Assembly (NCBI GenBank): GCA_945901155.1
Contig: CAMDKO010000016.1
Location: forward strand, 1-40,359
Source: Pedobacter schmidteae
GTDB lineage: Bacteria; Bacteroidota; Bacteroidia; Sphingobacteriales; Sphingobacteriaceae
Direction of reading: 5' to 3'
Length of the DNA: 40,359 nucleotides
The notes under the pieces are model-generated. The model saw only the letters and a program-made list of their open reading frames with translations. It was not told the origin of the DNA and did no database searches. Both the position numbers and the translations under genes were made by a program. Below, in pieces: positions 2,905 through 35,144 of this stretch. How positions within the stretch are numbered: position 1 is the stretch's first letter; every line of letters begins with the position of its first letter.

Positions 2905-3074
2905 TCAGTTTAAAATAGGCTACAGTAATTATATTACTTGACTAAATAACCTGAGTTCGATTTAAGGAAGAATAAAAATACCATTTAAATTGATCTCATG
3001 ATGCGCTAGGTTTGTATTATTTGATTTTTGAAACCAATACCTGCGTTTTATAGCTTAGTTCAGTCCTTTCCTAC

Positions 3075-3136
3075 GGAGTATTTCCGGCAAGAAATCATAC
3101 TTTATGTCAGATTACCAATAGCCGGAAGATACCTCC
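3075..3136. repeat. Long imperfect hairpin
   Basis: GGAG (3075-3078) and TTCCGGC (3082-3088) face GCCGGAA (3121-3127) and CTCC (3133-3136). This gives a 7-bp perfect stem extended by an A/T-rich internal loop and a 4-bp outer stem, around a 32-nt loop. It is part of the structured gap after accA. Confidence 0.55.
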
Positions 3137-3144
3137 TTCGGCAA

Positions 3145-3287
3145 GGTTTATTTTACTCGGAGCTGCTGGTGCGCGCGTGCCGCGCGTTCCATAATATTTT
3201 ACAAGCACACGCGACACGCATGCGCTATCTACTGGCAGTGCGGTAATAGAACCATAGGTCCTATTAAATAAACCCGGGTGGCAGCTC
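3145..3287. repeat. Two crossing complementary pairs (pseudoknot-like)
   Basis: GGTTTATT at 3145-3152 is perfectly complementary to AATAAACC at 3267-3274, and GAGCTGC at 3160-3166 to GCAGCTC at 3281-3287. The order of the arms means the two helices cross, so they would form a pseudoknot or be mutually exclusive. The intervening segment includes the 3172-3186 hairpin. Confidence 0.45.
3172..3186. repeat. GC-only hairpin, 6-bp stem and 3-nt loop
   Basis: CGCGCG (3172-3177), loop TGC and CGCGCG (3181-3186) form a perfect GC stem, very unusual in this AT-rich chromosome. It sits between the crossing arms described at 3145-3287. Confidence 0.6.
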
Positions 3288-3354
3288 TATCTTTTTTGCA
3301 ATAAGAATTTCATGATATCTATTCAATCTCCCGTAAAAAAATAGGGCAGAACAC

Positions 3355-3385
3355 GGGTCTGGTATAACCGAAGAGACACAGACCC
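3355..3385. repeat. Hairpin with 7-bp stem
   Basis: GGGTCTG (3355-3361) pairs with CAGACCC (3379-3385) around a 17-nt loop. Flanking GCA (3346-3348) and TGC (3386-3388) could extend the stem across a bulge. There is no T-tract after it, so a simple terminator is unlikely. Confidence 0.5.
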
Positions 3386-3533
3386 TGCTTTCTAAAAGGA
3401 GAGAAAAACTTCAGTTTAAACTTAGCCCAGCAAGATTTTATATCGAACTCACATTAAATAGACCTAGCGAAAGTTGGAACCTCCTGACTCTGATGAAATT
3501 CATATTTCAAGCTTTCCATAAACACATTAAATA

Positions 3534-4559
3534 CTATTTCTTCCATTCAAATGTAGCAGGACTTAATCCTCTTTGATATTTTCCGAAACCAAACATGGTT
3601 GGATTGTACTGGCCAACTAGTTGAACGTTATTTTGTTCGGGAATTAGCTTTTCCAAACCAGTTCCCCAATAACAGGCATTCACAACTAATCTGCGTAGGT
3701 CTTCACTTAACAAATCAACTGAAGAACCCATTGTTGTAGTAAATATCTTTGCCTTTTTACCACTTGCTGAGTTATAGCTCTTGATCCATGCTACGGGCAT
3801 GACCGACTTTTCAAAACTCAACGGTGATGTAGGGGTCATTCCCATCGTGGTTTGGCCGAATATCAAAACCTGAGCATCATTGGGAAGCCCCAGAATGCCG
3901 TATACATCAGTTGGTGTCCAGATATCTTTTACTCCGTGTAAAATTGGATGATCTTTCACAAGCCCATTGACCAGTGCCCGCGTGCCTTCTTTAGCATGTA
4001 CGCCATGGTGATTAATCCATGTTTCACCAAACACCTGCTTTCCATAACCACCTTCCCAGCCTTTTACCTTACTGTTATAGCTGTATTTGGCATAAGGACT
4101 TTCCTTGTTGCGCGAATAATTGAATGCATGAGTGGAAGTCCGTAAGGCTACAATTGGTTTCCCAGCATTTGTGTAATCTATAATGTGTTTCATTTGTTCA
4201 TCGGGCAATTCCCTGAAGCGTAATAACATAACCATCAGGTCTGCTGTCTTAAGGTGCTCCAATCCTGGAATATTGGTCTGTAAATCCGGATTGATTTCAT
4301 TAGTCTTTGGATCAAGGGCAAATAAAACAGTGCATTTGAAACCATGGCGCTCTGCTAAAATTTTTGCAAGCATAGGTAAACCTTCTTCTGAACGATATTC
4401 TTCATCGCCACTTACAAATACAATATGCTTGCCTTTTCCAGGGCCTTCATTTCCTTGATATACAACCCATTGTGGGCTTTTTTGAGCGATTGCTAATCCA
4501 ATATTCATGAATAGGATCATCATGATTGCAAACAGTCTATATGTTTTTTTGTTCTTCAT
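3534..4559 (-). CDS. Exported ThuA-like domain protein
   Basis: This is a 341-residue protein with a Sec signal peptide (hydrophobic residues 9-24, ending GLAIAQ). The mature part is a single ThuA-like fold, a flavodoxin/glutamine-amidotransferase-like alpha/beta domain. It opens with HIVFVSGDEEYRSEEGLPMLA at about residues 45-65, includes LMVMLLRFRELPDEQMKHI and GKPIVALRTSTHAF, and ends with a region that reads as a closing strand-rich lobe. ThuA was named for trehalose utilisation in rhizobia, where it acts with the Gfo/Idh/MocA dehydrogenase ThuB on 3-keto sugars. Here it is the last gene of the island, 83 bp after the SGNH-cytochrome gene, and would act in the periplasm. A role in processing a 3-keto glycoside is an inference. 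Confidence 0.88.
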   Translation of the reverse strand: MKNKKTYRLFAIMMILFMNIGLAIAQKSPQWVVYQGNEGPGKGKHIVFVSGDEEYRSEEGLPMLAKILAERHGFKCTVLFALDPKTNEINPDLQTNIPGLEHLKTADLMVMLLRFRELPDEQMKHIIDYTNAGKPIVALRTSTHAFNYSRNKESPYAKYSYNSKVKGWEGGYGKQVFGETWINHHGVHAKEGTRALVNGLVKDHPILHGVKDIWTPTDVYGILGLPNDAQVLIFGQTTMGMTPTSPLSFEKSVMPVAWIKSYNSASGKKAKIFTTTMGSSVDLLSEDLRRLVVNACYWGTGLEKLIPEQNNVQLVGQYNPTMFGFGKYQRGLSPATFEWKK

Positions 4560-35073: not shown

Positions 35074-35144
35074 TGCCCGATAGTATAATGGTAGTACAAC
35101 TGTTTTTGGTGCAGTTTGTCTAGGTTCGAATCCTGGTCGGGCAA
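35074..35144 (+). tRNA. tRNA-Gln (anticodon TTG)
   Basis: The cloverleaf is complete. The acceptor TGCCCGA pairs with TCGGGCA, and the D-arm contains AATGGTAG. The anticodon stem ACTGT/GCAGT closes the loop TTTTGGT with anticodon TTG. The T-arm CTAGG-TTCGAAT-CCTGG is canonical. Discriminator base is A, and CCA is not encoded, so it must be added after transcription. It has its own promoter upstream and a terminator hairpin about 40 nt downstream. Confidence 0.95.

Follow-up and report, generated by a model that had tools for sequence, protein, structure and literature searches.

A nested repeat with IS982-type ends and a palindromic core related to Flavo-1 lies downstream of accA in Pedobacter schmidteae

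The window analysed here, a stretch of 40,359 nucleotides of Pedobacter schmidteae DNA, contains accA, the identity of which was confirmed by PF03255, and an intergenic gap that separates it from a convergent open reading frame at 3534-4559. A preliminary description of this DNA had drawn attention to a GC-rich, self-complementary segment at 3060-3400 within the gap. The segment is indeed richer in GC than the window as a whole (0.434 in 3025-3397 compared with 0.381), and all the helices that had been listed are present: a long hairpin at 3075-3136; a pure-GC hairpin at 3172-3186 (CGCGCG-TGC-CGCGCG); two helices proposed to cross in a pseudoknot, ggtttatt (3145-3152) with aataaacc (3267-3274) and gagctgc (3160-3166) with gcagctc (3281-3287); and a 7-bp stem of gggtctg (3355-3361) and cagaccc (3379-3385). 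Compared with dinucleotide shuffles, the segment folded with z-scores of −3.5 on the plus strand and −4.1 on the minus strand, and none of 100 shuffles was as good on either strand. The helices were thus correctly located, but not the limits of the feature, which is larger and occupies 2949-3454. An Rfam search gave no family match in the segment, the sole gathering-level match in the window, which is also the sole ARAGORN match, being a tRNA-Gln (TTG) at 35074-35144.

The segment represents a single copy of a three-layer nested repeat, for which we infer the order of nesting set out below. When positions 2905-3530 were used as a query (E ≤ 0.001), the search for further copies that had been suggested at the outset yielded 12 places in the window's own genome (G000), the longest other copy being 91% identical over approximately 506 bp and several others spanning only 25 bp. 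Of 60 genomes, the window's own included, 14 gave a match; 11 of these belong to the genus, represented by 20 genomes, and in the remaining three no match exceeded 34 bp. An exact 22-base motif from the core occurs in at least 118 stretches in named genomes, and the carriers among the 80 matches listed include MAGs titled Daejeonella, Bacteroidetes, Bacteroidota, Sphingobacteriales and Sphingobacterium thalpophilum. Searches of plasmid, phage and viral collections gave no match. The element is also present after accA in G002, G008 and G011; G007 does not have it there and carries other sequence, and thus does not provide a clean empty site. Directly outside the element, a stretch of about 50 bp (3466-3517) matches many places in G007, G008, G009, G017 and G019, and is therefore another dispersed repeat.

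The outermost layer is defined by 17-bp terminal inverted repeats (TIRs; ACSTGAGTTCGATATAA), located from the aligned ends of copies at 2949-2965 on the plus strand and 3438-3454 on the minus strand. Both TIRs are retained in 64 of the 87 long copies and one TIR in a further 21. The window copy is flanked by the 6-bp direct repeat TAAATA on its left (2943-2948) and right (3455-3460) sides, and target-site duplications of this size are enriched over the 93 end pairs considered: exact 6-bp duplications occur in 10 pairs compared with 2.5 expected (maximum of 6 in 300 shuffles), and exact 7-bp duplications in 11 compared with 2.3 (maximum of 6). A 3-bp duplication, our initial reading, was replaced by the 6-7 bp one; at the simplest boundary an exact 3-bp duplication is absent in 66 of the 93 end pairs.

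The TIRs begin 5'-AC and are common to an IS982-family element. We searched the 20 genus genomes with PF13612, which we take to be the IS982 transposase domain, and found intact genes only in G004 and G008; the search of the window's own genome found none, and no open reading frame of 80 or more amino acids, and hence no transposase reading frame, lies between 2949 and 3454. In G008 the intact gene sits between the same inverted repeats, approximately 1,050 bp apart, while in G004 one such end was seen with the intact gene and an additional decayed copy lies behind a perfect TIR. Ends shared with a transposase-bearing IS982-family element of a congener make the outer layer a newly found IS982-type miniature inverted-repeat transposable element (MITE). 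No parent insertion sequence with the same interior was seen, the IS982 copies sharing only end sequence (33 bp at most) with the consensus. According to a review passage (PMC7335449), IS982 ends start with 5'-AC and are accompanied by direct repeats of 2-60 bp. One such MITE is already known from Cardinium: the passages on MITECca01 (PMC9769881) describe an IS982-derived MITE that resembles the present element in being short, in lacking a transposase gene, in its IS982-family ends and in its many copies in a Bacteroidota genome, a likeness drawn from the published description. MITECca01 is approximately 240 bp long, in contrast to approximately 455 bp here without the innermost insert, and according to the same passages it derives from a parental insertion sequence, whereas the element in the window has a foreign palindromic core. 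TIR-bounded relatives of approximately 190-330 bp also exist: some have a partial core, and others form a distinct family, about 205 bp long, with a different interior. Members of this second MITE family, which has the same IS982-type ends, were seen in congeners at L228 1689-1893 and at L233 1956-2145 and 3219-3444, and some of its copies directly adjoin a copy of the larger element.

Positions 3166-3234 (edges approximate) are missing in most aligned copies. This insert consists of two inverted copies of a palindrome of approximately 25 bp that has 17 matches in the window's own genome, the query included. The pure-GC hairpin at 3172-3186 is one REP unit of this inverted pair; it exists as described, but belongs to the insert and not to the repeat as found in most copies. 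On contig 17 of the same genome (L385 4880-5613), a frame-broken, RAYT-like gene lies between inverted REPs, its match to Y1_Tnp of 22.5 bits falling slightly below the Pfam cut-off of 23. REP pairs associated with a RAYT transposase are termed REPINs. The insert resembles these in being an inverted pair of a genome-recurrent 25-bp palindrome with a RAYT-like gene between such units; it differs in that the frame of this gene is broken here, and the likeness to REPs is confined to the insert and does not extend to the element as a whole.

Between the outer ends and around the insert lies the palindromic core (3025-3397), which a covariance model of the core, R1, matches with 297.1 bits on the plus strand and 62.6 bits on the minus strand. 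Read on the plus strand, it is bounded by an inverted repeat, P1 (3025-3044 and 3378-3397), within which two facing hairpins, HpA (3075-3136) and HpB (3282-3349), are joined by a middle stem, P2 (3145-3153 and 3266-3274). In an alignment of 44 of the 57 core references, this nested structure of 60 pairs is 91.3% paired compared with 38-54% when slid, P2 itself being 86.5% paired, and contains 53 double-change cells compared with 20.7 in shuffles. From the same alignment RNAalifold recovered just HpA, to which it added a lower stem, and the upper part of HpB; P1 and P2 were not predicted. For a larger alignment, 312 chained hits were reduced to 192 unique copies with at least 200 columns, then by score to 161 and by identity to 159, and the 101 copies with at least 350 columns were used for a tree and for branch counts. 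On this tree compensatory changes number 12.3 in HpA compared with 4.6 in a within-branch null (null maximum 11) and 12.0 in HpB compared with 6.1 (null maximum 12). No excess over the null was found for P1 (0), P2 (0) or the TIRs (4.0 compared with 4.5). When all pairs were tested for covariation against a tree-aware null, the result was not significant, although helix pairs took first, sixth and eleventh place among 105,791. The crossing helix of the supposed pseudoknot (3160-3166 with 3281-3287) can be set aside: 71.9% of its cells are paired in the 44 copies compared with 72.9% in shuffles, and it shows 1.0 compensatory change on the tree compared with 1.6 in the null. Compensatory changes in excess of the null are thus seen in HpA and HpB but not in P1, P2 or the crossing helix. 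The 7-bp stem is perfect in the window copy, but its consensus, read by eye, pairs GGGACTG with CAGACCC and has a central A-A mismatch.

The helices differ from their surroundings in how they have changed. On internal branches we counted 0.53 changes per column for HpA, 1.12 for HpB, 1.10 for P2 and 1.27 for P1, compared with 4.49 for the outer arms; overall the helices have 3.5-8.5 times fewer changes than the outer arms on internal branches and 1.6-2.9 times fewer on terminal ones (for HpA, 4.2 compared with 9.3). Helix constraint is thus stronger on internal branches, the fold having been kept in the propagating lineage while single copies decay. The earlier suggestion of a decayed repeat element was therefore right as to the repeat, which exists as many dispersed copies with TIRs and direct repeats, and right as to decay only for single copies. 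The TIRs change at 3.0 per column on internal branches, more than the 0.5-1.3 of the core helices, although alignment at the ends is less sure. A plain MITE would not be expected to behave in this way, since a transposase needs its TIRs.

Relatives of the core occur beyond the genus. At E ≤ 0.001, R1 matched 39 genomes among the 301 of the family, 13 (of 20) from the genus and 26 from three other genera; the weakest of these score about 30 bits and may be palindromes arising by chance. In the stronger relatives the ends TTTTGGAAAGCA...TGCTTTCCAAAA are conserved, as are unpaired motifs, CGGGACT and AACCGAAG among them. A stricter limit of E ≤ 1e-7 leaves 24 sites, of which 11 are matched in both orientations owing to the palindromic nature of the core. 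Alignment A2, which was fitted to R1, has 238 double-change cells compared with 91 in shuffles; the fitting, and the inclusion of 11 of the 24 sites in both orientations, bias this figure towards structure. No IS982 TIR was found near 20 of 21 core relatives checked, and the last had only 5-mismatch matches. The core without IS982 ends is thus found in other genera and elsewhere in the window's own genome. In another genus, L298 (385-1537) carries four core copies in tandem, approximately 290 bp apart.

The preliminary description had recognized no known class. This holds for the window copy, which falls below the Flavo-1 (RF01705) gathering score of 42 bits, and Rfam searches of other element copies at E up to 5 gave only matches far below the cut-offs; it does not hold for close relatives. 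Four core relatives, all matched by R1, exceed the Flavo-1 cut-off (L303, 52.0 bits; L292, 63.3; L338, 50.3; L339, 45.5). Across the phylum, 44 of 296 genomes contain Flavo-1, many of them with at least 15 matches, and in the window's own genome it exceeds its cut-off at five places. Two of these, L338 and L339, are R1-type double elements, and the three solo places have no R1 match at E ≤ 0.1. These intermediates relate the core to Flavo-1: the hairpins are of the same design, but Flavo-1 is a single hairpin of approximately 76 positions, whereas the core has two facing hairpins, a middle stem and bounding repeats. Twenty Flavo-1 copies from two genomes consist of a hairpin of about 80 bp with flanks that by eye are apparently unrelated. 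In 37 canonical copies we counted 768 Watson-Crick cells, 2 G-T, no A-C and 1 other, despite many different base pairs; these copies are top scorers, which exaggerates the rarity of G-U, and 20 of the 37 come from two genomes, two loci that duplicate sampled sites having been excluded. Selected RNAs usually tolerate G-U, and its near-absence in Flavo-1 therefore fits a palindrome acting at the DNA level.

Taken together, we favour, with a probability of roughly 0.75, a nested non-autonomous mobile element. An IS982-family transposase, whose insertion sequences share its ends, would most likely have moved it in trans, with the palindromic core, a diverged relative of Flavo-1-bearing elements, as cargo. 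Because the core exists elsewhere without such ends, the composite probably formed through the flanking of a core by IS982 ends and would then have multiplied in the genus; the inverted REP pair would have inserted later, at the tip of P2 in the window copy. The fold would have been maintained in propagating lineages most likely as DNA, because both strands fold alike and the wobble pairs of neither strand are consistently favoured. Weighing against this reading are the lack of a PF13612 match in the window's own genome and its presence in just 2 of the 20 genus genomes, the score of the window copy below the Flavo-1 threshold, the other sequence at the G007 site, the many end pairs lacking an exact 3-bp duplication, the non-significant all-pairs result and the excess of G-T over A-C cells in HpB described below.

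One rival holds the core to be a functional structured noncoding RNA, in line with the placement of Flavo-1 in Rfam, carried as the passenger of a MITE. Covariation in HpA and HpB and retention of the architecture across genera would suit such an RNA, as would the standing cells of HpB, where G-T outnumber A-C by 34 to 14 in the 44 copies, as expected of a plus-strand RNA. The corresponding counts are 13 and 13 in HpA, 11 and 21 in P2 and 22 and 35 in P1, so that standing wobble cells lean to the plus strand in HpB and to the minus strand in P1 and P2. A minus-strand RNA, prompted by the A-C cells of P1, was abandoned since the remaining helices show no such lean in their branch changes. Starting from Watson-Crick pairs, changes to G-T and to A-C are of similar number in HpA (24 and 27), HpB (54 and 49) and P2 (16 and 15), with 24 and 45 in P1. 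Without a consistent RNA-strand preference, with P1 and P2 lacking compensatory change, with the pseudoknot failing and with Flavo-1 nearly devoid of wobble pairs, we consider the noncoding RNA originally proposed improbable. In Flavobacterium psychrophilum, according to a passage of PMC9723704, Flavo-1 hits show no preference between sense and antisense orientation and many of them fall outside transcribed regions, which also speaks against it.

It is equally improbable, in our judgement, that mutation alone makes the pairing perfect, template switching within imperfect palindromes copying one arm onto the other so that covariation signifies no function. The Watson-Crick-only covariation of Flavo-1 is what such copying would leave, and template switching has been proposed to create and maintain hairpins (PMC8794818, in the part consulted). 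However, arm correction alone predicts no contrast of the kind seen between HpA and the outer arms on internal and terminal branches, and the unpaired motifs are likewise conserved across genera. A host role as transcription terminator or insulator at gene ends is least likely of all: simple ORF calling placed a gene on either side of 77 copies, 39 of them between convergent, 30 between tandem and 8 between divergent genes (convergent versus divergent, binomial P 5.5e-6 from these counts alone; 2 further copies overlap an ORF), but avoidance of promoters by any insertion yields the same bias, and the hairpins have no T-run outside their arms.

Flavo-1 might itself be a DNA element instead of an RNA: the hairpin unit of a mobile palindromic repeat, found singly, in facing pairs bounded by inverted repeats of their own, in tandem arrays and captured inside IS982 ends, with Watson-Crick-only covariation reflecting a hairpin that serves, as DNA, to propagate the repeat. 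We put this forward tentatively, as somewhat less probable than its negation. In the titles, abstract openings and passages of the open-access literature searched, we found neither the composite element nor a DNA reading of Flavo-1, which appears as a table row in the part of PMC2864571 consulted and as a mention in that of PMC9029176. On the favoured reading, layered mobile DNA would explain a structured gap, and an Rfam family of unknown function would be linked to a mobile palindrome; it also suggests a testable caution, that covariation without wobble pairs may flag DNA palindromes filed as RNAs. Among the copies of the element, L036, L067 and L183 have lost the left half of the core and retain the left TIR with the same junction, so that a truncated form seems to have spread.
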